From contig NC_092572.1 of the NCBI RefSeq assembly GCF_037975245.1, positions 4,857,501-4,921,500 on the forward strand: 64,000 nt of DNA, written 5' to 3'. Position 1 is the first letter of the stretch. Every line of letters starts with the position of its first letter. Below the pieces are notes generated by a model that saw only the letters and a list, made by a program, of their open reading frames with translations, was not told where the DNA came from and did no database searches. Positions 9,729 through 50,400 of the stretch are shown here, in pieces. The DNA comes from Apostichopus japonicus (lineage: Eukaryota; Echinodermata; Holothuroidea; Aspidochirotida; Stichopodidae). The translations under genes and the position numbers were made by a program.

Positions 9729-12101
9729 GTAAGTACTTACATCTTCAGTAACCCGTCTTAATAACTTGCCTCTTATGTGTCATCTCCATCCCCATGCCTA
9801 CAGGTTTAAGTCCCAAAGTCTCGGTCTGTTAAGACAGTTACACCCATCTAAATTTTCACAAATTCTTCATAATAGTATGCTATAAATATACCGCCGTTTT
9901 CCTTTGTTGACGCTAGCGTTTATTTCGTTACTCATTCTTTTTATTCATTTGTCGGAAGCATACATAATTTATTTGATGATGGTGTCGTGTATGTGTATGT
10001 GTGTATCATTTAAGCAATTACTCACAAAGTATGTTATAGCTAATGTTGATGCATGGCATACATGGTATTGTCAAAGTGAATACAAGAAGCCTATTGAAAT
10101 TGGTCGATGTCAATGGACATGAGGTAAATACATGTCAAAGATTGAAAACCTTGTAAACACGATAACTCAAGAAGGACAACTTCGTTGAAGTTCACAGTTG
10201 GTGTGTAAATCACGCAAGTAAGCGTTAGAACCACATTGAGAATTGGAGGTCAAACGTAAGTTGATTTCAACCTAAGCGAAGTCAAAAATAGGCAAGCCTA
10301 GGTCGACTTTATACTTGGTATGTGGATTTACACTTGTGTGTACAACAAGCTGCTTCTATGAAGAACAAAGGTCATTCAAGGTCAATATACATAGCATACA
10401 ATATTGTACACACGATAACTCTGACATTAAAGCTTGGATTAACTTCATGGGTTTGTGGATCCAACTTAGTGAGTTCAATAAACTATAATACTTGAAACAG
10501 TCAACAGGTCCAGCAAACCTCTAGCACACTACTAGGATGCTATAAAATGTCACAACCGTTAATGGTGTTATTATCCAGAGATTCTCACTGACGATTTTTC
10601 AATTTATCACCACTTTGTTATTTACAGAAGTCACACATAAATTCATTGTCATCAGCAGCATCATCAATCCCGGCACACGCCGGATGAGCAAACTGAGTGC
10701 ATACCGTGCACTGAATCATGCCATCTTGCATGCTTTGGCTCCATAGCTTGCTGTAATCGATACACTCGGTATTGTTTGGTCATCTTCACCGGCATTGTCT
10801 AGTACTGAGTCGGCCTCACTTCTTACTGATCCACCGTTAGCATATTTGTTCCTTTAATAACAGTATTACTTAATAAATCACAGCATAACGTACATCCGTG
10901 ATCCAGGCGCTCGACCAAAGACCGTTCCAACGGGCCAATAGTCTATAACTCTATGGCCTGTGGATACACTCAATCGTGTAAACAGCGAGTAATAAAGCAA
11001 TAAATGAGCAAATAAGCACAAACAAACTAAGGATTCGAGTATATTTGCGAACGTGTTGAGAAGAATTCGGTCTAAACTGGAGCATTGTCGGCGGGGAAGG
11101 TGCCTCAGCTTCTGTGAAATTTTCTTTTTATGATTTTTTTTAATAAGCAATGTCTCCAGCGGCTATATGCGTTGTGTCCGACCACATTCTCCGTTACCAT
11201 ATATACTGTCTTGTAAACTTGACCTAATATTCTACTTTTTTTTGCCTTGTCTAGAGCTGAATATGGGCTGTTGCCCAGGTTTGTCGGTCAAGGCAACTGG
11301 GAGTGGCACGATATGAAGGTGGATTCTTCCAGAGTTGCTTTTAGCGGAAAAAGCGAAGACAAAGGGACAACATTCATAGACCTGTTTACATTAAATAATC
11401 CTGATTCTTCGCCTTCATTATTAATTCGGTTTTATTCTAAAGAATTCAAGAATCATTCAAAATGGCGGCCTCGTCATGTTTCATTCTTGGATGATTCTCG
11501 TATAGTCACTGTGTGTGAGAATCAGTTAGATGTCTTCAATATCAAGACAGACAACTTACCCACACACAGTGAGCTATTAGGTAATAGGGTAGCTTCGTGC
11601 ATAACTGTTAGAGAGCGAGAGATATTCATCGGCTGTTTGTTTTCTAACGAGGTGATTGTGTTTGATTTTAATTTAAATAAAATCAAGACAATCACCTTTA
11701 AACGATTACAAGAATATTATGGTAGTTCTGCAGATATAACAGTGCATGGAGATGATCTGTTTATATCTATAGACAATGACAGTGCTACCAGATACAACAT
11801 GGATGGAGTTATTGTACATAAATACAAGACACCAGACTACACACTTCCATACAGTATCACTGTAAGCAGTGAGTTTGGTCTGGTGTTTTTATCATGTCAT
11901 TTTTTCTTCCATGATGTTGTTGTCGTTGTTGTTTACTCTCTCTCTGAGGGTCATACATTGTTTACTTTCCGAGTTACTGATGGTTTTGCGAATAGAATCA
12001 GGATAAGCAGTGTAAACAGGTCTATGTTTACAGTAACAGAAGAAGGAATACTGGGTGTATACAGCACAGTAAGTACAGTAGGACAGTGTAAGAAAATGTA
12101 A
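9656..12101 (+). CDS. TRIM/NHL-like beta-propeller protein, 3' part (two exons seen)
   Basis: Exon 9656-9728 has good splice sites (TTTGGTACAG acceptor, GTAAGTAC donor). Its frame joins exon 11255-12101 (acceptor TTGTCTAG) with matching phase. The short exon gives a charged, helical stretch (starting EQERAQLIEIC, ending KLPIVTP), like the region between the coiled coil and the propeller in TRIM-like proteins. The long exon encodes about 280 residues of alternating beta-strand repeats (for example DDSRIVTVCENQLDVFNIKTD), typical of an NHL- or WD-like propeller. No RING or B-box exon is visible, so the N-terminus is missing and the TRIM label is inference. The frame stops at 12099-12101 with an AATAAA at about 12124. 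A strong donor (GTAAGTAC at 12069) lies just before the stop and is in phase with the DED exon at 14978, so an alternative splice into the next gene is possible. Confidence 0.6.
10618..10779 (-). pseudogene. PHD-finger fragment, antisense in the propeller gene's intron
   Basis: The minus-strand frame ending at TAA (10618-10620) contains DGMIQCTVCTQFAHPACAGI and then, 15 residues further on, C-D-F-C-K before the stop. The spacing Cys-x2-Cys-x4-His-x2-Cys-(about 17)-Cys-x2-Cys is the C-terminal half of a PHD zinc finger. The first cysteine pair is missing or frameshifted: upstream the frame closes at a TGA, and only one plausible Cys (about 10763) remains. PHD fingers of this kind also occur in transposon proteins, so it may be a transposon relic or the last exon of an unrecognised gene. 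Confidence 0.45.
11255..12101 (+). CDS. Exon: beta-propeller domain
   Basis: This large exon has a polypyrimidine-rich acceptor. It encodes repeated beta-blades with hydrophobic strands broken by charged turns; the Trp-Glu-Trp-His of the first blade is at about 11300. The ending is ambiguous: either the stop at 12099-12101 or the internal donor after 12068. Confidence 0.65.
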
Positions 12102-14977: not shown

Positions 14978-15248
14978 GCATCCATGTTTACCTTCAGCAA
15001 TCTCAAAGAAGAACTGTCTTCAAGGCTCACCGAAACTGACTGTGGGAATTTAGGCCGCTACTTTTCACTACCACCTGATCAAGTGCAGACCATTATTACA
15101 AGTCCCTTGTACTCCAAGAAATTTCTGCTTGCCCTTGAAGAGAGAGGATACATACACCCTTCAAATGTGAATCGATTAACCGATGCTCTCACTGAGCTGA
15201 AGATCAACCATATTTACTTGTTAACAGAGACGTACATGAAGCTAAGAG
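14978..15248 (+). CDS. Exon 1: first DED
   Basis: The acceptor TCTCCCTTCCATAG is followed by GCATCC then ATG at 14984, and the donor is AGAG|GTAGGA. Residues 1-88 show the DED helix pattern: a hydrophobic N-terminal helix (FSNLKEELSSRL) and the characteristic FLLALEERGYIHPSNVNRL, in which a short loop precedes the last helices. Because the exon has an acceptor, either a 5' UTR exon or the upstream propeller exon is spliced to it. Confidence 0.8.
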
Positions 15249-18200
15249 GTAGGACCCTAATCATTACCTCTCTTTGTAATTTTGTATTTTGATTTACCCC
15301 TTGTAATTCCAAAGTAGAACTTGAAAAGTGTCTTGATCTCCATACATTATGGCGCAATGATCATACATATTTTCCTGTATATGACAAACCTCTTAATGCC
15401 AACTCGCCCAACCCCCCTCCCCTCCCTCGGAAAGATTCCCCTTTAAGCAATACATAACACCGGATCTTGATTAATCATAAATGTTGAAACCAAACTGTGT
15501 ACACCAATACACAGTATATGTATTAACGGCAATAAATCACTTTGTGCCATGATGTGTATAAATGCATAAATCAGAATGCCTGTTTGTCTTTGGATATTTA
15601 ACAACACTGGAAACTTCAATTTGATGTTTACCTTAAACATTTCAGATCAAGAGACTGAATACGATAGATTCCTCGCCACCCTCTCTGCTCATTTGACATT
15701 TTCCATAACGGAGAAACTGTGTGATAACTTTGAAGTTACTGATGAGAACAAGAAAACAGTTATCTCTAGTCAGAATCCAGGACTTTCCTTCCTCCTGAAA
15801 ATTGATAAGATGGGTATCATTAATCCTTCTGATGTCAGCAAATTAGAGACACCTTTAGAGGAATATCTTCTTCTCCAGGCAGTAGCGAAGATACACGAAT
15901 ACCAGTCCTTGGTACTTTCTGACAAATCTCAACCACAAGACGAAGGTATTGTAAATTCCTATGTACGTTACAAACTTTAAACTCCACTGGTACAAGTTTC
16001 ATGCCAGTTTTTAGGAACATACCTGACTTAAAGATTTCATAGCTCAAAAACAGATAAATACACAAATTGCACTAACTATCTTAAATAACAAATAGTTGCA
16101 ATACAAAATTAATTGAGAAATAATGGATGTCACAGGTACTTTTATTTTTTTTAAGGAAAAAGCCTATAGTTAAACTATAACAACTGGGATTTCTGTCTTT
16201 GAAAATCTCATATCATTGTGATTTTTTTTTGCATATACATGAACGTAGCATAACATCGTTTTATTGCATACTACTTTAAGATTTTTTTGCTATAGGATAT
16301 GAACATAAAATCGCATCGTTCAGATGACATACTACTTATAGTTAGTTGACTTTTGCAATTGGTACACTCTGTTATACAGCACACACCTACATCCTGACCA
16401 ACATATACATTGGATATCGGTGTAGAATCAATATCCCTAATTCAGCTATAATTCACTTTATCCCAAAATGTATTTATAAACGGAAACTCTTATCATTACA
16501 TGGCAGCTTTTGCAGCATTCAGGCAACACGTCCAGGACTCTGAGTCAAGCGTCTTCACTGATCAAAGTACAGCAGCTCCTCCTAAAAATTTTACTTACTT
16601 ACTTTGAAAAATTGACACACATTCTTATACACCTGGGTGTTACAAGATTCTGGGAATTTCCATCCTTTTTCCACTGAAGGTGTGACAGACTTAACCTTGA
16701 AGGTTCCACCACTATACATTGCTCCCTGAGATTATGTGACATTACTTCAGACACCGGAACTGGAGGTTAACCCATGGAAACACTCTCCTACCCCAAATTA
16801 TAAATACCACAGGGGATTAAACTAGACATCATGTGTGGAGGATTTCCTCTTCTAATCACACACATTTTGTTATTATTGTTGTTCGTATTACTGGTAACTG
16901 TTAAACTGACTAAGCATGTTTGAGCGTTTTCAGTGTATTAGTTTGTGTTGGAGTGAGCTTCCTTTACATTGGAAGATTATGAAAGACGTTATCAAAGAAA
17001 CAGTGTTACCAGATTATCCAAACTATAAACATCAAATTACATTTGCCTAACACCTTGGTAGATTTCTAGCATGAATTGTGAAACATTTCACCTTCTCGTA
17101 ATGGTAGTTGTGTTTCTGTATTTCTTGTTTTAAAGATAAAGTGAGCTTATTCATGAAATGCCTCCAACAGAAGATGAAGAGTTGGTTTGAAACCATGACT
17201 CCTGTCCCCTGGAAGAAGTCTTGTCAATGGAAATCAAAGGATCTATTTATTGCCAGCGGCTTAGTCTTAACAACTTTTGGTTCAAAAATATCTAGCAGAA
17301 AGGTTGACCGAAAATGTAAGCTACACTACCTAGATATCTTTACTGATGAAAGACTAAAATCAGAGACTCGAATCATTCTGGAAGGACATCCAGGGTCCGG
17401 CAAGACAATGCTCTCATCTCAGTTGGCCTATGACTGGTGTTGTGGGAAGCTTATGGATATCCCCCTGTTTATCTATCTGCCCTTAAAAATTGTTGCTGAC
17501 ATGACAATTGTTCAAGCTATCAAGTTCTTCTACATACGTAAATATATTCCCATCACAGAAGAGGATATTGAATCTATACTTACCAGTGGCAAGAAGAAAG
17601 TCTACATCATATTAGATGGGTTAGAAGAATACAATGGTGGACCCAAAGATGGAAGTCCCTCAGAAGTAATGAGAGTAATGACAAAGGAAAAACTGTCCAA
17701 CTGCATTGTTATAATCACAGCTAGGACAGACTATGCCAAGGATCTACCTCGAGGTCCACTGTTGACGATAGGAAGCTTTGGTGAGGATGAAAGGAATGAA
17801 TACATTGAAAAAGTCTTCTCTGATGATCAAAAAAGGCAAGAAGAAGTAAAGGAATTGATTGATAATGTTCCATTTATTATTGATCTTTGTGATGTTCCAC
17901 TGCTCTTTGTGTTGTTAGTACATAACATTGATAGATTAGAAAAGTTAAAAGAAGAACAGCTTGACAGAGTTACTCCTTTCGTGAAGGCCATTGTAGACAT
18001 TCTGTGTTCTGTGCAGGATGAGGAAGGCAACCATAGTCATCTGTCACACCAGAAAAAACACATTACTTTGGAGGAACTTGCATTTAACGGCCTCTGTAAA
18101 GGAAACCAACAATTGTTTTGGGAGAACGATTTTGTGGATAGATATGTCATTAATAGCAAAACGTGGATAGATTCTGGGATACTTGTTGTTGAGGAAGGAA

Positions 18201-21200
18201 CTCCATTAAATTCCTCTAGTAGAGATGTTCAGACTGACTCAGGCAGTGTAAGTCCCCAGATTGATACCATCAGTGATGAGTCACTGAACACATATAATGT
18301 TACTTCAGAGATAAAAAGAGAAGTATGCCCTGATCCTGATCTCTTGGCATCTGTCAATCAATCAGAGAGTACACCAATTTTGACATCAAAATTTTTACAG
18401 AGAGGGAAAGATCCGAAATATGTCTCTTTACAGGTTAAATTTCTTCATAAGTTAATCCAAGAGTGGTTTGCAGCAAATTATTTAGCTCTCTTGTTCTGGG
18501 GTCATAAATCAACTGAACAACATTACAAGTATCAATTGTTCAGAGAACACTTGGCTAAAATACACCCAGCTGATCTTCATTATATCTTGCGCTTCACCTG
18601 TCACATCTGTCCTCCTAGCTTTCACTTCATTGCCAGTTTTCTAATGAGAGACTTTAAAACAGGAGATGGTGAGATTCCTGATTACATCATGAACTGCATC
18701 TGTCTTTGTTTTGGTGAGCATAATGAGTACAAAGGACACAAGTTCAAGGACATTGCCACAGAGATCTGTAGACGAAAATCTGTCAACTTCAGCTTTGAAG
18801 ATAGTCGACTGATGCTGAGGTCAAAAGTTTCTATGTTGACCTTTGCTTCGAGATCAAAGGTACATTGACTTTTATGTTAACAATTTCTATTTTAAAAGTA
18901 ACTGCATATTCCTTGAAATTTGGTTGGATGAATATGCTTGATAAACATTTGAGCCTGCAGTGTCGCAAACTGTGCTTGAATGAATTCCCAGTAATATATA
19001 AGTCATTATGTTTGATGATCAAGTCAGTGTTGAATTGGTTCTCTTTGTGATTACATTTTGTACCCAGTCCTCTATTGCCATTGTACCTTCCGTTATTCCA
19101 AGGGACCTTTAACGTTCTCAAAGAGACCCTCTGGTATCTGTGAATACTGATGTCAGGTTTTAATGTGGGAAACACGCTGTTCCTTTTTAGGTTCCAGTAA
19201 AGCGACTAAAGTTTTCAGATGTGGTTGAAAAAGTTACAGACAAGGCGCTTGTCTTACAGGACGATGTATGGCTCGGTATATTAGAAACACTTGAGGCTAT
19301 TGAAATGGATCGATGGGACCAGACACTTACTGACAAAGATTATGAAGACCTCCTGAAATTCATTTCAAATTGTAAAAATGTTAATGCAGCATTGTAAGTA
19401 GAAATGTTATATCTTTTGTTTATTAAAACCATGAAGACAGAACTGAGAATACATACCTACATTTACATAGAGACAAGAATAGTTGACGATGAATATAAGT
19501 AAAGCCAACGGGAAAGAAATAGTAACTGTTGGTTTATTTCTGTCGGTCACACAGAGTTCATTTGTAACTGTTTCGTTGTTTACACAACGGACCAAACTAT
19601 TCATTCCTATTGAATCAAGATATAGAAAATATATGCAAATTCAATATTCCTTTATTAAATATATACGAAGCATGGAGTGAAATGAATAACTAAAACACAT
19701 GTTACAATATTTAACATTTGTTGCTAAGAATTTCTGTTTATAAGAACAGTGTCTGCACCAGCCATGTATTGTTTTTTTTTTCACTTTCTTTAACCATAGT
19801 TTACTCTTTCCAAGTCCACCGAAGGATGTGACAGATGACAAGATTCTGAAAGCCTTACAATCCCGAAATATTTTAGGTACAGTTTCGCTTGGCAATTAAC
19901 GAATACCATTTTTGTTTGGTTATGTAAATTAAGTCCCTTGGTAGCATGTTGTAGGTCAATTCTTATCACACAGTCAAAGGAAGTAATGTGTAGTCGACAT
20001 GACATTTAAAACAAGTGAAATCTACATTGGTCTTACATCTTTGTTTGAAGCACTTTGTAATGTACTCAAAGTATAGAGAAATAACTTGGATCAATTGAGC
20101 CTTGATTCCTTGTCAAAGGCAACACAAATCTGCACCATATGGATGGTGTTTATATGTGTGAAGTTAGAGCTATACTGATTTTGTGTTATCATTTGAGATA
20201 ACATGAGTTACAGCCTGAATACTTTGTAGAAATGATAAACTTCTCCAAAAGTACAGCGTCAATGAAATTAGGCATATGGCATATCGATTCACTTTACATT
20301 GTTGAGTGCAAGGACGCTTTTTGTTTTCTTTGTGGAGGTCAAAAGTCTGGAAATCTTGTCACAACAAAAACTCCAAGTGTAAAGGGTGGATAAATTTTGC
20401 ACTTCTATGTAGATCCATTTGAAAGTTATTTTCTGGATGGTTAATATGCTTGATAGAAAGAAGATTAGGAGAAAGATGAGACTGAGGCAATTTTTGGATT
20501 ATCTTTATCACTTACACTTAATTTCTACAGGCATAACAGTATTTCTCACAAATTGTTAAACAATTGTTATTTTTTCAACCAGATGTTTACCAAACATGTA
20601 GTTTCTTGCAGATCTAGTCTAGAACGAGATGTAACTGCAATTTTATGGAAACAAATTGTCACCATTTAGCGAATAGTAAATCATTTATTTAAGAGAATTG
20701 CAGTTCTTTTCGCAATCACCAAAACAGTTAAATGTGATCTAATATGCTCTTTGCAGTTGAATGGACCATTGGAGCAAACGCAATTCACACTTTAGATGTA
20801 CACACTGGAAAATGGCCGGTGAGACAAACATAATCTTTTGTTGTTTATGCCAAATAATAAAGTGTCATTTGTTAAAGTGAAAGTTTGAAAGCATTTTTCC
20901 ATCACATATTTGCTTGATTGTTGCTTTCGAGAATTTCTGTCAGTTACCAGCAAATCTAAATTGATAATCGTTTCTATTGTATTTATCTTGAATGATTTCT
21001 TCAACCAGATGGAGTTTAGACCACACAGTAGGAACTCTAATGAACCATCATCAACAAAAGCAGTTAAAGGTAACTTTATGATTCACAGTACCAAGGAGAT
21101 TGTTAGTGGAATAACTTTTTTTTAGAAAAGGCATCATGATTGACTTTATTGAAATGGAGTTTAGAAGAGTTTCAGAGTTTTACAAAGTAGACATTTTAAA

Positions 21201-24200
21201 AATATAATTGAAAATGTAATACTGTAGCAATGATGAACGGTGGAATAAAGTTAATAACAATGGCAGCACTCGCCTTTGATATAGTTTGTAGTTTACCAGA
21301 TAGGCTAATCTTCAGAGCCTGAAATCTTTGGGGATAAAAAATATAGATCCTAACCTTAGTGTGGTACAATCCAGGAAGAAAATGAATTAGGTCTTAGGAA
21401 GCATTTTGACACCAACAGAGCCACATGTAGAGACGCACTCAAGCTGTAAAGAAAATCCGAACAACTATAGTCTATGTGTAGTAACACCATAAACAGTGTG
21501 TATCATTATATTCAAGCAAACATGCAATGGCACATGACAATTTAGTTGTATCGAAGGGGAAACGGAAAGTGACATTGTGTGACCCTATTTTGTTATATTT
21601 CACATCTCTCTCATGCTCTGAGTTACCTAACATGATCAGCTGTGATTGTTCATATTGCATAAGCTGGATATTAACATATGTAGCACTGTATACTAGCAGA
21701 TATAATACCCTCTTTACCAGTTGTTAAGCATTGTTTTATGATATCTACGATGGTGCCTGAACATACAATATATGTGGGTCTCATACAAAACCATACATGA
21801 GGTGCACAGATGGTAAAGCTATGTCTAACTGTAATACTCAGCAAGTTTATGAATTTGAATTTGCATAATTGATATGAAAGCTAGTGCATTAATTAAATAA
21901 TAAGGTCAATGGCTCAATAAAGAGTTGTACTGACCATAAAGCTATAAAAACACACTTTAAAGAACAAATAAACATACTTTCTTGAGGCAACAGTGGTACT
22001 AGATCACACTATTTGATGTTAAACTATATGATAGGAGATTACTGGCATGTGTGTTTCTATTTAATTTGTGGTGATATTCATGATATTCTCTTTACACTCA
22101 TCAACATATATAGACTTGGACACATTTTTTAGCATAAAATCGTTGGTTAACATGAAAGGAGGTATTCTTGAGATACCAGGGACTGGCGTTAGACTAGAGA
22201 TTCCTACTGGTGCTATTGAACAGGAATGCTTGATCCAGATGAGAATCATACCAATCAGTTTTCAAGAAGAGTCTGAATCATCATTTACAAGTAACTCAAC
22301 AGTAGTAGTGGAACTTCTTCCTGATAATCTGAAGTTACATCAGTTAGCAAAACTCACCCTGCCTCACTGTCTGCAGTTTAAGAACACTGGTGGACGCAAA
22401 GCCATGGTGTACAGCAGTCACCATGCTAAAGGTACTGTTTATTTGTAGTGTGGGAACTCTGACTAAGCACACATGGACGAAACACCCCACCCCACAGTAT
22501 ATGCTTACTGGATGTATTGTTCTTTCCTGGTATGCAGTATCTGTCACACCTACCAAGACTATATTGGTGTGTGTGTGTTGCCTTTAGTGTTGTCAACACA
22601 CAACAGATAACTGAGAGTGTATTAGGTTTCATAATCTTGATGTATGCAGCAGTCTTCACATGTAGAAATATTTGCTTGCTAAATAATTGTACAAATTCAT
22701 TCTTACAGCAAAGATATGCAGAGCATATTTTAATGTTGCTAGCTAATGCAGCTGTCATCATTCCATACAAGTTATAAAGTTGACTTTCAGAAATAATAAG
22801 AATATAACATATCATCGCAATATTACTTAGTAGGTAACGGTGTTAATATAACCATCCTAATGAAACTTAACCATGTCTTCCATGGCATGAATATATGTCC
22901 TCAGCAGCTGCTTTTCCGCAATTAAACTCACTGCAAATACCACTGGGTTGCAAGCAAAAATTATTCTTGGAATACTCTATAAACAAAACTTCCGCATTAT
23001 CTGTAAAAGTGTGTGCTTGGGGAGAAATGAAAATTAAGAAATGACAATATCAACTTTTCAGGCTCCTGCTATATTTTGTTTTGATACAGGTTCTAAGCCA
23101 ATGTGGAGACCAAAACCTAATGTTTTGTATCAGGTGAATGACACAAACTGTGTAATCTGGATTGAAAGCTTTTCATGGGAGACATGTCAGATTGATGGCA
23201 AATATGTTGAATTTAAGCAGATCCAAGTCTATGCTGCTCGTAACCTGAACCCACTTTCTAAAATAATACCCATACATGTTGGCTTCTACCCTAAGCTGCC
23301 AGGTGAAAGACCGGTGAGTCAAAGAAAAGAGTTATCATTTGTTGCAATTAATTATTAGCTACTTCTCTTTGTAATGTAATGGTGTTAAGTAGTGTAATTA
23401 AACAGTGGTACAATAAAGCTGCTAAGACGTGGTTCAAGTTATTTGCAATGTTATTTATTATGAACACACACCAACTTTCATACCACACTTATTGTGCTAG
23501 TATCAATTTGCATGATGTCCATATGCAAGTATTAGTACAGGAAAACGAACATGAGTAGGAGTATGAGTTCAGAAAAAAACTGTATTACTGATTTAGGTGC
23601 TCTAATAAACAACACAAAAGTGTGATGTTTAATCTAGTTGGTCAGAATTTGCAAAGGAAACTTGTTCTTATTTGTGGGAAATTGATGGAAATCTCTTTCA
23701 GTAGATCTTTCGGTACATTATCAAGATCAATTTTCCATTTGGAGAGAAATTGCAGGCGGGAACGGGAAGGGACACCAGGAGAGGGGGTTCTGAGAGTAAT
23801 GCTTCCAAATTTGTAGCCCAGACAAGATATAATTAATAATTTCATATAATTAATATTGCAAAAAACGAATAGTAACATGCGATTTAACAAAAAGCCACTA
23901 ACACAGAGGAACAAGTTATTGGAAAGTTATACACCTTAATGACACCGAAAAGATTACAAAGACGCTTATAATAGCTACACTACAGTTGGTATAACATTTA
24001 GAAACTCGTAGTTTGGGAAAGAGGGAGGAGATTTTATGAAAGGCTGAAATATATGCGTTCGTGTGTGTTGGGTATGGGGGAGGGGGGAGCTCTTCTGATT
24101 ACCTGGAAGTGAAACATCTTTAATGGTGAAATGAGCCACAGTATGTGCTTGCACAAACATCTCTATATTAGAGAATTTTCCTATAGGTAGATAAGATAAC

Positions 24201-27200
24201 AAGATTTCACACTTGAACAGTGTTTAAAAGATGTCATAGTGCATTTCCTACAAGATTTTTTATTCACTTAATATTGTAATGATAATAATAACGATAACCA
24301 TAATGATAATGATGTTCCATAATGAAGTGTACACTAACTGTATGCAACATATTGTGACGTTGTTTGAAAGTAAAATATATGTAGCAAATGTATCCATACA
24401 GGATCAGAGTAATAATTGCAGTCATAATAAATATGGAAATAGACATCGGTGTTTGACTAAGAAAGTATGAGTACCAAGTCGTTAGTTCAACAAATGAGCA
24501 CAATGAGTATTAAGGGTACGGCAAAATGTACTCATGTGCTAATACAGACTCCGGTACTACAATGTTAAACATCCTTGTTGTCAAACATAAATTGGAGCGA
24601 TATAAAATACCTCTGCTCCCTTTGCTTACCTATACAGATAGGCCTCAAGGTATATGGGCAAATCTGCTTTTACCTCATAACATAGAAAAACTTGTTTACC
24701 AGCATAAATGGCAGAATAATATCTAGTAGGGATGAAATTTAATAGAGATTGAATCACAAGTACTAGGTCTAAGCATGTTAATTTTACATGGATGTATTGC
24801 CTATATCTGTTTGTTTCATTAATACTATTGTTGTTTTCCATCAAGAATAATTTGCAAATTTTAGAAGAAATTCCGTTCCTATTCCAAAAAGAAGGAAACT
24901 TGCCTTTGAAGATACTATTTAAGGAGGTAATGCCCATGTCCTGGAAATATACAGGAGAGGAAAAAGGAAAGGTGATGACCTCTGATTTCTTTCATGTTGA
25001 CCAATAAACACAGGTTTTTATTCATGTCTAGCTTTGGAATGACTGCATTCTTAACCAGCCTGTGTTTTGTAAATCTTTTGTTAATGTTGTTTAAATTCAT
25101 CATGCTTTCCACAAAGAATTATGATCATGAAGTGTTGTATGTTATGGAACGTTTGATGTATCATGCTATGTCATTCTTAACTCTGGATTTGGAATTGATT
25201 CTGTAACATGTATTTATATCCAAAGAAAAGTATTACGTTGGTTTTCATGGCTTGCATTGTTTTAAGCTCATTTGGCATGACCATCCAATAGAGCTAATGC
25301 CATAGCAAGGTGCATCTATCTGTCTGTAAATTTTTTGAAAGGTTGTTGCTTTCAGTCCATTTGCCCAAACCTGATAAAGATGTCCAAGTTGCTGCCCATG
25401 TCAGGGGCTCCATAAGCCTTACGTCTAAATTGGAGTAGGGCAAAGTTCATTTGAGGTTAAGGCAGGTACAAAGATAAAAACCTTTTAATGCTTCTCCTCC
25501 TTGGGTGTAATTCTGATCGTTTAAGTTTGGAGTTTATGGAGTAGTCGGTTGATGAGTGGGCACAAAAGTGTTACAAGGATAGGAGGCCAAAGGATGTTTT
25601 AATAAATAATTACAGAAAGTGAAATATTTTTCAAATGAATCTTCTCTATTTGGAATTAATATCATGACGCCAAATAGCAATAATCAATAATGTAAGGTCA
25701 AAGGTCATATGCAGCTATTAGCAACCAAAAGTAAGCATTCTTCAAACCTGCATATCTCCTAGATGCTTGTTCATATTTTCAGAAACGTTGATTTAAACAG
25801 TGATATCCCCAAACTTGCTACATAGGTAGGGAACCCCCCTCATCCCACCCTCTCCATGTTGTGCATGCCGTTGTGAGGTGGCACAATATTCAGTACAGCA
25901 GAATAATTCAGGGCATATCACATTGCACCAAAGCATTGTTGGCAGAATAAGATAAGTTACGCCCAGCGGTCAAATTGTGCCCCAGTTTGATGTGAGTTAA
26001 ATTGAAATTATTTTCAAGGGACGTTTATTGTAAGAACTCTTCCATAGGAATGGACTTAATTCAATCTGTGACTAAGTTGTTCTACATTAAGAGTTTTTTG
26101 CAATGCAGTGGACAGATTCCGAAAAGAAAACAATTGTCTGCACATATTTGGAGCCTTTTGGTGGGAAATGAGGGTAAGGGCAAATATTTCCCAGTGAAGC
26201 TGACCATTTTACCTCCAAAGGAAATATTTACTTTGATAGTTTCAGACAGGCTCCTATAATCTGAAGAGGACAAACAGTAGTATCTCAAATCGGTTTGCTA
26301 TCTGTGTACACAAAGAGAAGATGGTTTTTGAAACTTTATAGTCTTAAAATGTAGTCACTTTGCCAAAGTCTCTCTTTGAAAGCTGGTATTGTTGAGGGAA
26401 GCACAAACATAACTGTCACTTCAGAATAATAAATATTTGTGTTTAACATATTTAGAATAAAGCAACCTTCCCTTATCACATGACTAACAATTAATTTCAG
26501 CTGCAGATAATTCCTTTCTTGAACGTAGCAGCCAACGTGGACTGTCGGTGTTCATTTGTCTTTATGAAGGTTGGAGAAGAAGAATGTATTTTAGACTTTG
26601 AAGCTACTCAGGAAGATCCAGTACATTTGATTGTCCAGTTGAAGGTTTGTAAACATTTATAGATTCATTTTGCTGTTAAATTATCACTTGACAATATTAT
26701 CAGCTGTCTTTGTGAATTCTTTTACTTTTGTTGGTTAAGTTACACATTTACTTAAATATAAAACTATTGAATATGTTCCGCCTCAGTGCATGCACATCAA
26801 TGAAGAACAACGTATATTTTCATTCAGTAAGCAATTAAGGCTATAAAGTATTATTCTAATAATTATGCTATGATCTATGTATGCTTGAAGTAAGGTCTTT
26901 AACTACACATATTGTTATCACACCCTAACCCATAGTGTTATGGGAATGAGATATTTTACCCTATTAACCTTTTTGGTTCGTTGCTGGAAGCAAAGGAATA
27001 TATTACGTCAGGTTAGCGTGTGGTTGGTGTGTGTGTGACACCCTAGCTTTTAACATGATTTTACAAGATAGGTAACTTCTGCAGTTCTCATATTTTGATC
27101 TTGGCTTCCCCATGTTTAGTGCAAGAATTGTAATGTTTTTGGTGGAGGTCATTTGTGGTCAGCAGAGGGCAAAATGTGAAATCTAAAATTTCCAGAACCT

Positions 27201-28382
27201 GAACATCAAAGGAGGTTATACATGCATGGTAGGATATCCATTTTTAGTGTAAAGTTTTAGAGACTTTGGAGTAGGTCACAGTTCATTTAAGGTCACCAGG
27301 GGTCAAAATTTGAAATCTTTATATACATAATGTCTCCCAATAGAGAACTGTATTGGTTCTCATACTTAGCATTTGTCTTTCATATATTGAGTACAAGAAC
27401 CATATTAGTTTGAGTGGAGGGCAAAAGTCATTTGGGGTCAACTGAGGTCCAAATGTCAAATATTAAAAATACTGTATCTTGAGAATTTTTCCTTCAAAAA
27501 TAGAAAAATACAAACTTTCTAAAGGTCAGGTCTCAATGAAGATGTAAGACTTATTCTGATTTGACTTCCCCATATGTAGTAGAACCTATTTGCAGTTTTA
27601 TTTGGAGGTCAAAGGTCAGCTTAGGTACATGCAATATGGACTTAAGCCAGGGTCAGCTGGCAAACAAATCTTGTGCTGAAGATGTAATGTAAAGGCAAGT
27701 AACCACTGGGAAGGGTTTCCCTCCGGTTGAGATAACCATTTGTCAAAGTATAACAATATTTAAGAATGGTAAATCTGAAAACTTGGATAAGTTTCATAAG
27801 TGCGTGTGGATTCATTCTGGAATCTTAAATCCTTGTAAGCACATGTTTTTGGAGTTTACAGTGATAGTTCCTGTTTTATGACGTTGACCTCTGGTGAACT
27901 CAAGGACCTTTGACCTCTGTACAGATTGATAGGATTCAAAATATGGGTAACTTCAGCAGTAAAGTTTGCCTGAACTTATGTATCCTTTCAGTTGTACTCC
28001 AATCGTAAAGGTTGATTGAATTTGCTCAAGTGCAATAATAAAAAAAGTGGGGGGTCTTTTGAGGTCAACAGTGGTCAAAGTATGAAAATCTTGTGAATTT
28101 ACCAGTGGTCAAAACTTTCAATCTTGTCTACAGTGTTGCATTAAATATAATTAATTGTGGCATATAAGGATAACTTTTAAGCCCAATTATGGTTACTTTT
28201 TTACTAGTTAATATCGTAATACTCTGTGTCTAGCCTCATTTCAACATATATAATTGCAGGACGTTTCAGCATCATCCCTCTCAGGCATTTCTGTGCCACC
28301 ACAGGCAGCAGATGTCCCACACCCAAAGAAGAGACGATTAAATGAATCTACAGTTGCAGCAATGGTAAAGTTCAGATATCAA

Positions 28383-28462
<80 letters not shown>

Positions 28463-31400
28463 CTTCACTTGAATAAAGAAACATTAATTTGTGACTTGAT
28501 TTGACTTGCAAGAAAATCAAATGACTTGTGATAGACTTGACCTGCTGAAATAAAATTTACCTGTGACTTGCCTTGAATTGAGACACATTGACTGGTGTAA
28601 AGTAGTCACGTGACTTGGATACAACGCTGGATATCAAACTTTAAAGTGAAGGTCCATGTTTAACATATCTATGTAGGATTTTCCTGTTTTCTGATATTAG
28701 GATGGAGTGGAAGATTATGCAGCTCTCAGTTATCATAATGTAGTCGATGCGGGACTATCTCAGTCACCAAAGAAGACTTGTGCTGAAAGTCTAACTGTCA
28801 AACAACCCCTAGTTAACATTGATTTGGAAGTCAGAACAGAAATGTTCAGGGTAATAATTTACATACACAAGATTATGCTGTCTTGGCAAACATTCTTTTT
28901 AGAGCATATTACACAAATTAATGTTTAGTGAAATACTATATACAAACAAAATGTTCAATCAATCAGCTAAACATTTTCCCTAGATACGAATCATATGAGC
29001 TTTCTGGTTCTCAACTATCTCCTTTTCCATTTCTTTCTCACAGAATCCTTCTTTACCATCTCATCAAGCAATCAGAGGAGAAGCCAAAGGGAACCCAGTA
29101 GAAGCTGAAGCAATGACAATAGATAGCGAAGTAGTGAAAAATCAAACTCTGCTGGTAAGTATTAGTGAGTGAGAACTCCCAAATACGATTCATGACTTTT
29201 GAATCAGCGATTTCTAAATGACTGATTCAGACTGACTGCTAAATTGAGACAATCGTAATTGATAACATGTTTTTTTCAGTCACTTGAAGCCGACATTTAG
29301 ACATTACTGAAAGCTATATTTGCTAGACTAAGGTTTCATGTTGAATACATATAACATCTATAAACATCCCACAAAATATCAGAAAGTACACATAAATTAT
29401 TGCCCTATGTGCTTCCTTTTGTTTTTAAGAAGTAATAGCATGCATATTAATGAGAAAGCGAAGCATATTAACAATAATACTATTGCAATATAAATGTTTG
29501 TTATCTTTCATATTTGGCATGTTTGTATTGTTAGTAAGTGTTTATGCGCTTGTGTTATTAAATTATTGAAAAAAGGCTGAAACCATTATGCAAATGGTAG
29601 ATGGGATTTGATGTTACTTTATAGCTTCTGCTGCCAAATTGGAAAATTCTTTTGAAAGTTTATCAGTAGGTAGTGCATGAAATTATTAGAAAAAGCTATT
29701 TATTTTGGAACCAAAAATCATATCTGAGACAAACTTTGACGTATTTTGCCTTATTTGCCTGAAACACTCACATGAGGTTACACCAAAATGTCAACCACAG
29801 TCTTGCAGTACCTATGTTACATGGTTGCTGATCTTAGCATTGTATTGAAGGTGTTTAGAAGGACGTTGTGCATCTGACGTATTCTCAATTACCACATGCA
29901 GTGCTGCAGGAGCCACTGTCATACTTAACTGAACAATGATGTAACAGTTTGTGCTAATGTGACAGTGGTAACTGATATGTTCCGTACCTGGCATTAAAGG
30001 CTTAATTTTAACATGGAACTGCAACGGTCTAGACAGCTTGGATTGTTCTCTTGAAAAGAATAATATTGCTTTATTTTGTTGTCCCACAAAACATATATAC
30101 ACAATAATGGAATCTTTTAAAGTTTTGCAAGGAACAATGTTCAGTTTGTTGGGATTGACTTTAATGTTATAATGGCGTAATCTACATCAATCTGTTATAT
30201 TTGTAAGCGATTATGTAATATATGCTCTGTGTGGAAAATGTCCGCCAGCCAAAAACCATTAAATAATAACCACCTGAAATACCTAGAAAAATACCTGTCT
30301 TAACAGATAAAGTATTAACTACAAGCACATCGGTAGTATTGAGATTCTGCAGCATTTTTCCTGTATGCTTTCAGTTTCCTGTGTCAACCCTTCATCTGAG
30401 TTTACCACTCTTTTTCTCATTAACACCTGTTTGACAATTTTTGTTTGCAAATCTGTGTCTATTAAATTATGTGTCTATTTGTGTCAAAGTCACACTTTTC
30501 GCACAAAATTGCTGCTGTTACCATGGACAATTGTAGCTTTTGTCAAGCATATTAATGATTTGATGTGGCAAAATGAAATGATAGCCCTTTAACTGTGTAG
30601 TACACAACTAATTTTCATTAAAAGTATATGATATGAGCATTTGCCTCATTATTGTTCTAGCTTTTAACCATCCACTGAGGTTTTTATATGGATTAGCTCA
30701 ATTTCAATTGGAATCATGAGATAGTATCAGAACAATGAAACGAAACATTTTGTTCTTTTGTTATTTCAAGAACTTGTCAGGAACTTTTTCCAAAGAATGG
30801 CGGGATGTGGGAAGAAAACTGAAGCTTGATGAGACAGACCTTGACAACATAGAGGCGGATAACAAAAGTAAGGGACAAAAAGAAGTGGTTTACCAGCTGC
30901 TGTTACTATGGAAACGGAAAAATGGGATGGAAGCAACAAAAAAAACACTGAGAGACGCTCTTAAAGCAGCTAATCGAAAGGACCTGTCCGATTATCTTCT
31001 CAATAGGGAACAATGTGGAACAACGTCAGGTAAGTCAAAGACAACAAAACCATGAGATCATTATGGAAGATTATGTTTTTCTTGTGTTATATTTACACAA
31101 TACAGTTGTGCATTCTATAGCCAACATAATATGAAAAGGAAATTAGCCTGTAGAAAGAACAATTAACATTACGTATAAAAAACCGACATTCAGCAATAAG
31201 CTCAATGTAAGTCTTTAAGCAATTTTCCATGGAAGCATGAGAAGCAAAACAATGTGCAGATTGTCAAATAGCAAGCAGCTGCAATTGTCATTGAATATTA
31301 GATTATTAAGTTACTATTATAATAGTACTGCAGTTTCCTTCAATAAAACAACACTTATATGAGTCTTACTGTTGTTTGGAAGGATTTAAACTTTGATTTC

Positions 31401-31570
31401 CACTTTCGAATGACCAGGCAATTGTTTTACATTTCTGTATGATCTTATTTGAAAGCTCTTCTTGGAATTTTAATTCTACTTTAGAGGTTATTCTATAAGT
31501 AAAAACAGGAAATAACCCTACACATTTATATCCGTGATATTGCCATATCTTACACCTCACAGATGATTGA
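14984..31570 (+). CDS. DED-DED-NACHT-ZU5-UPA-Death domain protein (NLR-like, 16 exons)
   Basis: Exons: 14978-15248 (ATG 14984), 15646-15945, 17136-18859, 19191-19393, 19800-19876, 20757-20818, 21009-21069, 22114-22431, 23090-23302, 24865-24971, 26501-26644, 28260-28364, 28701-28850, 29044-29154, 30771-31029, 31563-31570. Every junction is GT-AG and phase-consistent, giving 4,107 nt (1,368 residues plus stop). Domains: DED 1-88, DED 89-188, NACHT about 265-650 (Walker A GHPGSGKT 272-279; Walker B VYIILDGLEEY 344-354; sensor-like VIITARTD 380-387; FLHKLIQEWFAANYLA 624-639), a weakly leucine-rich segment 764-877, ZU5 about 908-1040, UPA about 1041-1158, a Ser/Pro linker with PKKRRL 1180-1185, and Death domain 1281-1366. 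From family knowledge, NACHT drives nucleotide-dependent oligomerisation, DED and DD recruit death-fold adaptors and caspases, and ZU5-UPA can self-cleave. Inference: a cytosolic innate-immune or cell-death switch. No clear LRR sensor is seen. Reading through the last donor gives an alternative stop at 31053-31055. Confidence 0.88.
15646..15945 (+). CDS. Exon 2: second DED
   Basis: This 300-nt exon (acceptor AACATTTCAG, donor GAAG|GTATTG) is phase 1 at both ends. Residues 89-188 repeat the DED pattern, including LLKIDKMGIINPSDVSKL, which aligns with the equivalent loop-helix of the first DED. Tandem DEDs are the arrangement known from caspase-8/10 and FLIP prodomains. Confidence 0.78.
17136..18859 (+). 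CDS. Exon 3: NACHT domain
   Basis: The acceptor is CTTGTTTTAAAG and the donor AAAG|GTACAT. The exon encodes residues 189-763 and holds the whole NACHT module: P-loop GHPGSGKT (DNA about 17384-17407), Walker B with LDGLEEY, the sensor-1-like IITARTD, a DVPLLF segment like the GxP helical motif, and the NLR-typical QEWFAANYLALL of the helical domain. About 65 acidic, Ser-rich residues (about 544-609) are inserted before that last motif, which is unusual and probably a disordered loop. Confidence 0.93.
19191..19393 (+). CDS. Exon 4: post-NACHT segment
   Basis: The acceptor TCCTTTTTAG starts in phase 0 and the donor is ATT|GTAAGT. It encodes residues 764-830, helical and leucine-spaced (DKDYEDLLKFISNCKNVNAA), possibly a degenerate LRR-like or NLR-specific helical extension. 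No canonical LxxLxLxxN repeat is present. Confidence 0.8.
19800..19876 (+). CDS. Exon 5: post-NACHT segment
   Basis: A 77-nt exon, acceptor TTTAACCATAG, donor TTTTAG|GTACAG. Residues 831-856 include PPKDVTDDKILKALQSRNIL. The phase fits both neighbours. No family was recognised. Confidence 0.75.
20757..20818 (+). CDS. Exon 6: post-NACHT segment
   Basis: A 62-nt exon, acceptor GCTCTTTGCAG, donor GCCG|GTGAGA. Residues 857-877 include IGANAIHTLDVHTGKWP. Phase-consistent. Confidence 0.75.
21009..21069 (+). CDS. Exon 7: short linker
   Basis: A 61-nt exon, acceptor CTTCAACCAG, donor AAAG|GTAACT, encoding a polar linker (residues 878-897) before ZU5. It starts with an in-frame ATG, so an internal promoter could in theory make a ZU5-UPA-DD-only protein from here. 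Confidence 0.7.
22114..22431 (+). CDS. Exon 8: ZU5 domain, first part
   Basis: The acceptor ATATATAG is chosen over a nearby TTTTTTAG because only it keeps the phase. Residues 898-1003 hold the ZU5 signature: GGILEIPGTGVRLEIPTGAI, then VVVELLPDNLKLHQLAKLTL and PHC. The stretch YSSHHAKG near the end places two histidines (H1000, H1001) about 31 residues before the putative cleavage serine, similar to the spacing I recall for the catalytic histidine in NLRP1. Confidence 0.88.
23090..23302 (+). CDS. Exon 9: ZU5 end, predicted self-cleavage site, UPA start
   Basis: The acceptor is TTTTGATACAG. The donor CCAG|GTGAAA (23302) is chosen over CCG|GTGAGT (23313) because only it keeps the next exon open. 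Residues 1004-1074 contain MWRPKPNVLY, typical of late ZU5, then IESFSWETC at 1028-1036. The SFS codons are 23167-23175, predicting a break between F1031 and S1032. The first UPA strands (QIQVYAARNL) follow. Confidence 0.85.
24865..24971 (+). CDS. Exon 10: UPA domain, middle
   Basis: A 107-nt exon, acceptor TTGCAAATTTTAG, donor AAAG|GTGATG. Residues 1075-1110 include FLFQKEGNLPLKILF and WKYTGEEKGK, the beta-strand pattern expected of UPA. Phase fits exons 9 and 11. Confidence 0.78.
25695..25707 (+). promoter_or_regulatory. Perfect DR1 nuclear-receptor-like site
   Basis: AGGTCAAAGGTCA is a perfect direct repeat of AGGTCA with one spacer base, the classic DR1 for RXR/HNF4-type receptors. It is intronic and part of the repeat family above, so function is doubtful. 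Confidence 0.25.
26501..26644 (+). CDS. Exon 11: UPA domain, end
   Basis: A 144-nt phase-0 exon, acceptor TTAATTTCAG, donor GAAG|GTTTGT. Residues 1111-1158 end in beta-rich GEEECILDFEATQEDPVHLI, consistent with the last UPA strands. Confidence 0.82.
27100..28140. repeat. Intronic GGTCA-rich repeats
   Basis: The intron between exons 11 and 12 contains several degenerate copies, roughly 100-170 bp apart, of a unit with a GGAGGTCA-like start, a second GGTCA, a GGGGTCAAA-like core and an AAATNTTG-like end. Related blocks appear near 20.33 and 25.4-25.7 kb in other introns of the gene. It is probably an old intronic satellite or dispersed repeat. Confidence 0.5.
27606..27618 (+). promoter_or_regulatory. 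Second perfect DR1-like site
   Basis: A second exact AGGTCAAAGGTCA lies in the next intron, again inside the GGTCA-rich repeats. Two exact copies in one gene may simply reflect the repeat consensus. Confidence 0.25.
28260..28364 (+). CDS. Exon 12: linker with basic cluster
   Basis: A 105-nt phase-0 exon, acceptor TAATTGCAG, donor AATG|GTAAAG. Residues 1159-1193 are Ser/Pro/Ala-rich with PKKRRL at 1180-1185, a monopartite NLS-like cluster. A 70-bp TA microsatellite begins about 25 bp after the donor. Confidence 0.8.
28388..28459. repeat. TA microsatellite
   Basis: About 70 bp of alternating AT, with one ACAT interruption at the start, lie just after the exon 12 donor. The Tyr-Ile frames through it are not genes. 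Confidence 0.95.
28701..28850 (+). CDS. Exon 13: linker
   Basis: A 150-nt phase-0 exon, acceptor TTCTGATATTAG, donor CAGG|GTAATA. Residues 1194-1243 are polar (VEDYAALSYHNVVDAGLSQS) with no known fold; low complexity suggests a flexible tether. Confidence 0.78.
29044..29154 (+). CDS. Exon 14: linker
   Basis: A 111-nt phase-0 exon, acceptor TTTCTTTCTCACAG, donor GCTG|GTAAGT. Residues 1244-1280 form a Glu/Ala-rich linker immediately before the Death domain. Confidence 0.78.
30771..31029 (+). CDS. Exon 15: Death domain
   Basis: The acceptor is TTGTTATTTCAAG and the donor GTCAG|GTAAGT. Residues 1281-1366 have the Death-domain pattern: KEWRDVGRKLKLDETDLDNI, then VVYQLLLLWKRKNG, then LRDALKAANRKDLSDYLL, the six-helix pattern with the usual W in helix 1 and in LLLLW. 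If the donor is skipped the frame stops at 31053-31055. Confidence 0.92.
31563..31570 (+). CDS. Exon 16: terminal two codons and stop
   Basis: The acceptor CACCTCACAG is followed, in the phase required by exon 15, by Asp-Asp and TGA. This is a minimal coding end, and the alternative is the stop at 31053-31055 without splicing. The acceptor is weaker than the others. Confidence 0.5.
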
Positions 31571-47400: not shown

Positions 47401-50400
47401 CTACATCTTCCCTTATTAATTGCTTAGTTTTAGTTTCACGGTCGAGAATCGTATCACGAAGTGTCGATAAATCGATAAATGAATTGAATAGAAGTATGTT
47501 AACAAACAAACGCTCAGCAGGACGTGAAAGCCATCTTTTGTATTTACAAAGTTTTAGAAATGAATAAATCAATTTGTAACAGATTGAGACATTATTGTTA
47601 CGTTAGCTTAACGTTATAGATTTTGTTGTTAATAATTTATATTTCCAAACGCCTTTAAGCAATCTGATGAATACATGACAACAAATGGGCATGTACACTG
47701 TTCGATAACAGAGTGCTTTCAATTGCTAGTTGTTGAAAAGGATTTCCCCAACAAAAAAGTTAACGCTTGGCATATGAAAGAGGAACATAATATTCTAAGC
47801 ACGGTTTCTATACAGTTTTCTAAATTTACTTCCCATTTCCTATACTTGCATCTCATAAATTGATTATGTTATCGTCATTTGTATATTGTTAACCCAGCAT
47901 CCACTAAGGTAGAGTTGAAAACCTATTGAATCCGAGGTCAAAACCATAAAAGAGTGCAAAGTGAAGTAAAAACAAACTATTTTGCTGCCAGTGTGCAACT
48001 ATGACGTCACTCATGTACTCATCTAAGTTCAATTATGGTACAACTTATGACAGTTTGTGATATCTATATTTTGAATTCATGCAAGAATTGCAAGTTTCAC
48101 CAGACTGATTAAAATATGGTTCTCTCTCATTAATAATAACCTCCATTCTCCCTTTGGGTTATCACTCTAGTTCAATATAAGTATACCTACGATTAATGTA
48201 ACATATTGAGATAACTATGGTACATTTGTCCATGTAATTGGTGGATATTCAATACGTTGAGTTTTCTCGTTTATTTATGCATGACTTGTGATTATAATAA
48301 TGAGACGAAGCGTCTGTGTGACAATATATTAAAATGGAATCAAATGAATTGACGTATCTATCATTTCAATCTCATATCCCTAAAGGTGTATTTTTAATTT
48401 ATACTTTAGTCAAAGCTTGATACCGATGATACTTATTTTGAGACTTAATATGTTAAACAAACGCAAATATCTCTTTTATATTCGATTATAGCGTCCTGAA
48501 CTTTGTTCACTAGTCAACTTAATATCGTTTGTATTAATTTCTCGACCTTTTTAAAAAAAAATAACGTTACTGCAACACTTCCTTTCAATAAAAAAAATTC
48601 ATGATTTGTAAATTGTTATGAAATGATTTTTACCCAAAGCATCATTTGGGGTGGCACCTTCTTCGCAAGAAGCAGTCATAACTACTTCAACGGATTTGGA
48701 AACATCACCACGAAAGATATTTAGCTGTACCCATCGACCTTCCGAGGTCATAAATAGACCTATACGTAAGTATATACAATAACACTTTAATTGTTTAAAC
48801 AGCTTGAATCATAAAATAGTAAACAGAAAGAGAGAGTTCTAACAACTATACTTTCTCTTTATGTGTTATCATTTGTTGAATATAGTCTGATTTATTGTGA
48901 TTGTCGGACTCCTGCCGGAGCTATCAGCCCATACTTTCAAATATTTGTATTTGTAGTAGTACGGGAATATATGTAAGGTCTCGACTGAGCGTCACATATT
49001 TTGCGAAACCACAGTTTACACAGGTGACGAACATACTATGTTATTACTTTCTATAACGATTACATCACCTGATAGTCTTGAAGCGGGATCAGATCTACAG
49101 TTCTGATGACACTAAAATTCATAAATATTCATGATTTTTATTACAATTTAATTCATCTTTAAGCCAACCAATCGAAAATATTAGCTCTAACTATGAAGTA
49201 CAAACCTTCTTCATTGTACATTACGGTATCTTGTACAAACAATAGGTTGGAGCTTAAATTCATGATTGACATTCATTGATTTCGTTATTGACTGAGGTCT
49301 GACGTCATTGCCTAACCTTTCCACAAAACTATGATGGGTCGTTTGTCAGATCTATCTGTTTATCCTTCGTCTTTGCCAGTAAAAGGGTTTTAAGTATAAA
49401 TGTTATAAATATTCTTTTGAAGTCTGCCGTCATGTTTTCGTAGGTCTCACAATAGGTGATGGAAAAAGATGATGGAGAAAATAAAAGTTAAAAGTTAAAC
49501 GATATTATCGATGTTCGATTTTTAAATGGATTCATAACTTTTGTCTGTATATTGTCCACAATTGCTCAGGGTAAACAGAGTTATAGTACAATGTTGTAAA
49601 GTGAATAAAAAATTATTAACGACAGACAGACAACGTTACAAACGGAGATTACTTTTATGGTATCTCGATGGGTATATTGTCTACAATCTCAAATGGAAAA
49701 TAAACAACTGCAGGGGGACTCGGTGATTTCATCTAGGGTAGCTGTGAGGGGGATGAAAATCGTTTACAGAGAAAGTTAAGTTATTACTAATAAGGATTAC
49801 TAGTACACTAATCGGTGCTCACTCTATTCTTTCAAATATTTTCAAATATTTAACTGCTTAGCTTTAAATACATCAACATTCATCATTATTTTGCGTACCA
49901 TCCTAAAACAAACTGCTCTGCACAAGATATCGGTACGACGAGAACAGTGTGTTTATCATCAAGTAACTGCATTGCCAGCTTACCACTAAACATTGCACTA
50001 ATACCTTTATTGACAACGTTATTTATAGTGCGCTCACATTGTAAGTTTAATACACGCGCACGGTTTTGTTAAAAGGTAAAGTTGGTATTGCTCTTAATCC
50101 GAAATCCATTCCAATTGAATGTGATGGTGACATTTCTTTCTTGATCTTTCAGAGTTGCCGGTGCCGCATTCAATTACATACGGCAGTGTCGAACCAGATG
50201 AAGGAAATTATGCCTCTGAGATTGGATATGCTAATACAGATAGAGTAACTGTCAGTAGTGAAGACACAGAGAATACTAAAGGTAGCATTGATGAGGAAAC
50301 AGCTGGACCAACTTCGGCTATAATTCATTTTGTTGGTGATGATAATAGCGATGGTGATAGTAGCGGGGCTGAAATTGAAAGTAATGCAGTAACTAGTGCA

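Follow-up and report, generated by a model that had tools for sequence, protein, structure and literature searches.

The window analysed here is a stretch of 64,000 nucleotides from the holothurian Apostichopus japonicus, positions 4857501 to 4921500 of contig NC_092572.1 (C12 below). It holds on the forward strand a predicted gene in which two DED-like domains, a NACHT NTPase, a ZU5 domain with an adjoining UPA-like region, and a Death domain (DD) follow one another. Fourteen phase-compatible coding exons, all with GT..AG splice sites, span positions 14984-31052 and join into one stop-free open frame of 1,345 residues (Table 1). Exons were set by comparing the open reading frames (ORFs) of the window with six paralogous loci, then by splice sites and phase; the genome searched comprised 671,581,487 bases in 35 contigs. 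The first-pass annotation of this DNA had proposed 16 exons and 1,368 residues. Fourteen coding exons stand and the length is close to ours, but the last two exons (31030-31570) found no confirmation and the models differ at the 3' end. The exact C-terminal residues are left uncertain because a strong splice donor (8.9 bits) lies at 31029, within exon 14, and two paralogues carry sequence similar to the segment 31347-31598 on the 3' side of their terminal Death exon.

The gene model is a real, intact member of a sizeable family. Exons 1-6, 8-10 and 14 recur in order in all three diverged paralogues fetched (C12:25.7, C15:25.26 and C12:24.3 Mb), which share 43-61% identity over NACHT pieces. 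Reading by eye showed exon 7 in one of these paralogues. Exon 11 has a clear match in one and a weak match in another (E 0.018), and the phases of linker exons 4-6, 3' of NACHT, are kept in the diverged copies wherever these exons were found. Exons 12 and 13 are supported by closer copies. An origin of the model in chance ORFs was rejected, the domain order being repeated in tens of loci.

Table 1. Coding exons of the predicted DED-DED-NACHT-ZU5-(UPA)-DD gene, in window positions
Feature	Position	Strand	Content	Basis or remark
Exon 1	14984..15248	+	First DED-like domain, 88 residues, ATG at start	Copies elsewhere, DED profile
Exon 2	15646..15945	+	Second DED-like domain, ~100 residues	Copies elsewhere, DED profile
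Exon 3	17136..18859	+	NACHT NTPase (Pfam match ~17369-17827) within a 574-residue exon	Paralogues
Exon 4	19191..19393	+	Linker	Present also in the most distant copy fetched
Exon 5	19800..19876	+	Linker	Other family copies
Exon 6	20757..20818	+	Linker	EWxIG...HTLD in most copies
Exon 7	21009..21069	+	Linker, in-frame ATG at start	ATG kept in three other copies
Exon 8	22114..22431	+	ZU5; SSHHAK end with conserved His pair	Pfam
Exon 9	23090..23313	+	ZU5 end with ESF/SW motif (predicted break between F and S), then UPA-like start	
Exon 10	24846..24971	+	UPA-like region	
Exon 11	26507..26644	+	UPA-like region	
Exon 12	28260..28364	+	Low-constraint linker	Close copies only
Exon 13	28701..28850	+	Low-constraint linker	Close copies only
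Exon 14	30771..31052	+	C-terminal Death domain	Stop at 31053-31055, or alternatively spliced after 31029

Profile searches confirmed three of the domain calls of the first-pass annotation (NACHT, ZU5 and Death) above their Pfam cut-offs; its DED and UPA calls are not Pfam-grade. NACHT reaches E 2.9e-17 (63.4 versus 26.7 bits), and exon 3 contains GHPGSGKT, which we take to be the Walker A motif. ZU5 gives E 3.9e-10 in the window and was found in 10/10 members. Exon 14 matches Death with E 7.9e-14 (52 versus 22.6 bits) and CARD_2 with 0.003, under the cut-off of that family. Compared with PDB profiles, the Death domain gives RIPK1 (3.9e-13), then THO subunit 1 (2e-9), then FADD (9.3e-9). No LRR family appeared at E <= 1 in the Pfam scan of exons 3 and 4 (exons 5-7, of 20-25 residues each, lay outside it). 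As Pfam alone was too weak for DED and UPA, family alignments and profile comparison were used for these regions. Pfam DED is the commonest match of the N-terminal domains (six of 11 members, best E 0.012). Their profile scores 96.5% over 84 columns against seven Pfam-grade DED exons of the same genome and 0.1% against the family's own Death domain; four DED-like exons of an intermediate kind connect with both the N-terminal domains and these DED exons. The profile comparison supports the DED assignment, and the N-terminal exons are called DED-like here.

The closest solved relative of the ZU5 part is UNC5B (PDB 3g5b, 1.7e-6), and the aligned part ends at the putative cleavage motif. CARD8 and NLRP1 self-cleave at SF/S, between Phe and Ser, and CARD8 Phe-296 is the counterpart of UNC5B Leu-677 (PMC3210808; this and the other papers are cited from their accessible portions). 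The invariant Phe of the family, position 133 of our alignment, aligns with the same Leu-677 (UNC5B numbers were derived from Cys-670 and Glu-666 in PMC3210808), which strengthens the earlier suggestion of a possible self-cleaving switch. Of the 20 loci with an exon 8, 16 also yielded exon 9, and 15 of these 16 have FSW at the FIIND cleavage position; two copies beyond this set read ESFSW and EGFSW. Histidines are likewise retained. His-252 and His-270 are important in CARD8, and UNC5B His-624 was equated with His-252 (PMC3210808), while in rat NLRP1 the equivalent of His-270, His-942, was placed next to Ser-969 (PMC8081665). The invariant His of LPHC in the family ZU5 aligns with UNC5B His-624. 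Of the SHH at the end of exon 8, the second His is kept in 20/20 loci and the first in 18/20; both are absent from two ZU5 exons of a different type. At one family locus, C12:8.86 Mb, neither exon 8 nor exon 9 was found. Self-cleavage in ZU5 at Phe-Ser is a specific and testable prediction from these alignments.

A multigene family with death-fold domains at both ends is well supported. Among the matches listed, 43 loci on C12 start with the first DED-like exon, 42 of which have NACHT, and 38 also carry ZU5 with a same-strand Death exon after it; ZU5 comes directly after NACHT in 25, the window gene included. Six loci beyond C12, identified by eye on C1, C10, C15, C16 (two) and C19, show the same succession of both DED exons, NACHT, ZU5 and Death and bring the family content to at least 44 loci on six chromosomes (38 on C12 and six elsewhere). 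A further locus, on C17, lacks a DED match but has NACHT, ZU5 and Death. The copies are tandem duplicates, not independent cases. The C12 counts (43, 42, 38, 25 and the 13 and 5 given below) were made by eye, and they are lower bounds because the searches score best candidates only. A NACHT match was counted if it began within query residues 1-3 and was 42% or more identical. Five weak first-DED-like matches at C12:23.76-24.01 Mb (E 7.9e-8 to 0.009) with no NACHT match nearby were left out; including them gives a denominator of 48 instead of 43. Also left out were the ZU5 matches at C12:19.41-19.99 Mb on the minus strand (other than 19409003), 23.7-24.1 Mb and 24.7-27.2 Mb (other than 25752456), and 22 Death matches at 19.39-19.98 and 23.7-24.1 Mb.

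The loci are of two types. The window gene belongs to the first, with no Death exon between NACHT and ZU5. The second, DED-DED-NACHT-DD-ZU5-UPA-DD, comprises 13 of the 43 C12 loci among the matches listed, for example 33319983-33350912. The Death exon of the window type (75-86% in the matches) stands before ZU5 in second-type loci and is also terminal in some loci of either type; in the closest NACHT relatives of the window gene the last Death exon has ~50% identity. Locus 28834992 of C12 has two ZU5-UPA-DD sets. In several copies (C12:31615016, 33005200, 34122611 and others) both DED exons share one open-frame length of 319-414 codons, which suggests that the sequence separating them is open as well. 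One copy (L013, C12:19434300-19443500) has an in-frame stop in exon 4 and is perhaps a decaying member. On C11 and C23, DED-like exons are followed within ~2 kb by a different type of ZU5 without the SHH end; these loci are a second DED-ZU5 group in the genome.

Purifying selection acts on all domain segments. Between the window gene and the C12:25.7 Mb copy, the ratio of nonsynonymous to synonymous substitution rates (dN/dS) is 0.21 for the DEDs, 0.25 for NACHT, 0.28 for exons 4-7, 0.20 for ZU5, 0.27 for the UPA-like region and 0.41 for DD. With dS between 0.98 and 1.67, the six segments measured have therefore evolved jointly under constraint. Almost no constraint is seen on exons 12-13 (dN/dS 0.69 against the C1 copy, 1.37 against C12:31.5 and 0.86 against C17). 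Close copies are mosaic. The C17 copy differs from the window gene by dS 0.21 in NACHT but 2.5 in ZU5, and the C1 copy departs in a similar manner (see below), which suggests that family members have exchanged modules.

The first-pass annotation had joined DED-DED-NACHT to ZU5-UPA-DD in one frame, and this claim is well supported by the open, phase-compatible model and by the repetition of the order in paralogues. The locus thus most probably holds a single gene, presumably read as one continuous transcript. We favour the hypothesis, with a rough probability of 0.55, that its product is an NLR-like sensor with a self-cleaving ZU5, from which a UPA-DD fragment can be set free, by analogy with the UPA-CARD fragment of NLRP1 and CARD8. 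It would work like these proteins without being one of them. After folding, ZU5 would break its own chain at the Phe-Ser of ESFSW, with help from a conserved His in the last residues of exon 8. Cleavage would be constitutive, and the two pieces, of ~1,031 and ~314 residues, would remain bound non-covalently. The N-terminal piece, DED-DED-NACHT-ZU5, would be the sensor and keep the C-terminal UPA-DD inactive until a trigger liberates or clusters it; this trigger would be either oligomerisation of NACHT or loss of the sensor piece. The freed Death domain, which resembles those of RIPK1 and FADD, could then recruit DD adaptors or DD caspases, and the tandem DEDs may provide a second output of the same molecule, of the caspase-8/FLIP type.

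Several observations weigh against this hypothesis. At the N-terminus, the first domain of the window scores below the Pfam DED gathering threshold (13.5 versus 35.9 bits), a longer window piece gives no DED match at E <= 1, every family copy scanned is under the DED cut-off, and no family copy is among the 84 matches of the genome DED search. The PDB profile search of these domains retrieves the Pelle Death domain (0.014) before cFLIP (0.057), both weakly. In the UPA region, the joined exons 8-11 of the window give no UPA match at E <= 1, the domain is matched in two of 10 members (best E 0.011), the window copy not being one of them, and no family copy is among the UPA matches of the genome. 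UPA being weak by sequence, its call rests on position and weak similarity. At the cleavage position the sixteenth copy reads FCW, with Cys for Ser, and the residue before Phe is variable (Ser 9, Asn 4, Arg 2, His 1; n = 16). The His pair of exon 8 lies 31-32 residues before Ser, versus 27 in CARD8 and rat NLRP1, and its first His aligns with UNC5B His-645, its second with Trp-646; neither His is therefore claimed as catalytic. UNC5B is not known to be cleaved. Single-sequence models of single exons had a mean pLDDT (predicted local distance difference test) of 56 and gave no useful fold match. As for the gene itself, exons 12-13 were not found in the three diverged paralogues, and among the matches listed 13 of 43 C12 loci have a Death exon after NACHT and ahead of ZU5, and five lack a ZU5 match. 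The C1 copy is a mosaic, with dS 0.23 in NACHT but 1.03 in DD relative to the window gene.

Part of this evidence would fit one gene whose ZU5-UPA does not cleave itself but clamps the Death domain in an autoinhibited state, as in UNC5B, with FSW kept for structural reasons. The rank of UNC5B as closest solved relative, the alignment of the first exon 8 His with its His-645 and the poor conservation of UPA all agree with such a clamp. We nevertheless regard it as unlikely, as UNC5B has Leu-Gly where 15 of the 16 family copies have Phe-Ser, like the SF/S site of CARD8 and NLRP1 (PMC3210808).

It is rather unlikely that the locus consists of two neighbouring genes, DED-DED-NACHT and ZU5-UPA-DD, duplicated together. 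A start for the second gene could be seen in the ATG of exon 7, right at the acceptor in the window and in the C1, C12:31.5 and C12:25.7 copies, but the spliced frame is stop-free from NACHT to ZU5, and in diverged copies NACHT is succeeded by small linker exons whose phases are conserved. The intermediate Death exon of second-type loci is a possible end of the first gene; at one locus that has it, exons 4-6 were found ahead of it and no ZU5 was. Such an exon is missing from the window gene and from 24 other C12 loci. The unequal divergence of NACHT and C-terminal modules within single copies would also fit two genes, as would the weak first-DED-like matches at C12:23.7-24.1 Mb, which lie near ZU5 and Death matches with no NACHT match.

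That the window gene is little or not transcribed, as a decaying member of a family with fast turnover, is very unlikely: it does stand apart, with a distant relative ~4 Mb away at C12:8.86 Mb and the close copies clustered ~23 Mb away at 27.6-34.1 Mb, and some relatives have stops (exon 4 of L013, NACHT matches with TGA), but each of its 14 exons has an open frame and intact splice sites, and dN/dS against the C1 and C12:31.5 copies is at most 0.56 in each measured segment except exons 12-13, the Death exon being measurable for C1 only.

The favoured self-cleaving sensor has parallels in several known systems, among them NLRP1 (NACHT-LRR-FIIND-CARD) and CARD8 (FIIND-CARD). As in NLRP1, NACHT lies upstream of a ZU5-UPA-type module, and with NLRP1 and CARD8 the family shares Phe-Ser at the aligned cleavage position and a C-terminal death-fold domain. 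It differs from both by a C-terminal Death instead of CARD, by N-terminal tandem DED-like domains instead of PYD, by the lack of an LRR match in exons 3-4 and by its tens of copies. A NLRP1 orthologue was rejected, exon 14 being Death with CARD_2 below cut-off. PIDD1, of architecture LRR-ZU5-ZU5-UPA-DD, has the same C-terminal ZU5-UPA-DD, whereas the family adds NACHT and DED-like domains and has one ZU5 match in the window (best candidates only). On this count, and with no LRR in exons 3-4, a PIDD1 orthologue was also rejected. One family copy (L024) has HFSW, like the HFS motif of PIDD (PMC3210808). The cytoplasmic part of UNC5B has the same ZU5-UPA-DD order and the closest solved ZU5, but UNC5B is a membrane receptor without NACHT or DED and has Leu-Gly, not Phe-Ser.

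DED adjoins NACHT, as here, in proteins of amphioxus, sea urchin and Nematostella (PMC2575513), of Hydra (as cited in PMC13133943), and in Chiridota NLRs with N-terminal death/DED domains (PMC8913654); the accessible portions of these papers mention no ZU5-UPA-DD C-terminus. NACHT and ZU5 occur together in proteins of early-branching animals, where their function is given as unknown (PMC12909245), and of cnidarians (PMC8260672); tandem DED and a cleavage motif are not mentioned in the corresponding portions. Self-cleavage has been predicted for FIIND-bearing TRADD-N proteins (PMC8195603). The first-pass annotation knew of no described protein with this domain order, and we found no report of the full DED-DED-NACHT-ZU5-UPA-DD order in one open-access library, although it may be described elsewhere. 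Its parts are less exceptional than that annotation held, since DED-NACHT and NACHT-ZU5 are each in print. The family is a new combination of known parts.

Possible partners of the two ends are encoded in the same genome. Caspase exons on C17 and on C23 each have two DED exons 7-15 kb upstream, and at C16:1.87-1.90 Mb two sets of DED, DD and caspase exons stand in a row, one DED exon with a stop; a third C16 set has DED and DD with no caspase listed. Through these putative DED caspases and DED/DD/caspase sets the DED end and the DD end could reach two kinds of caspase. In the C16 row (1864920-1908188) the caspase exon of the two sets lies 2-3 kb downstream on the same strand, and the Death domain is a relative of exon 14 of the window.

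Elsewhere in the window, a 292-codon open frame just upstream of the gene (11223-12098, plus strand) gives the impression of a beta-propeller and has no Pfam match over cut-off. An 84-base tandem repeat of 17 copies (50380-51809) has long open frames on both strands, Ser/Gly/Asn-rich on the plus strand, and a C-type lectin exon (Pfam Lectin_C, 3.2e-5) lies at 58849-59271 on the minus strand.

More tentatively, and with less confidence than in the self-cleaving sensor itself, the family may be an echinoderm lineage of NACHT sensors that cleave themselves and have two outputs, in which the DEDs would lead to caspase-8-type enzymes and the UPA-DD released by ZU5 to DD adaptors or caspases. It would have grown by copying, both in tandem and to dispersed sites, with exchange of NACHT, ZU5-UPA and DD modules among the copies, and would include the form with an extra Death domain before ZU5. 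Genome screening reportedly found no gasdermins in A. japonicus, and lytic cell death there is reported to proceed via caspase-cleaved MLKL (PMC11932488). The family makes the link from sensor to caspase in this species testable. If the hypothesis holds, NLRP1-type fragment release would exist outside vertebrates, in tens of genes and with a different C-terminal signal. Such a large family of NACHT with a motif-bearing ZU5-UPA-DD would imply that the principle of fragment release is old or arose more than once, and its natural variants (FSW and FCW; Ser, Asn, Arg or His before Phe) would be useful for testing the requirements of cleavage.

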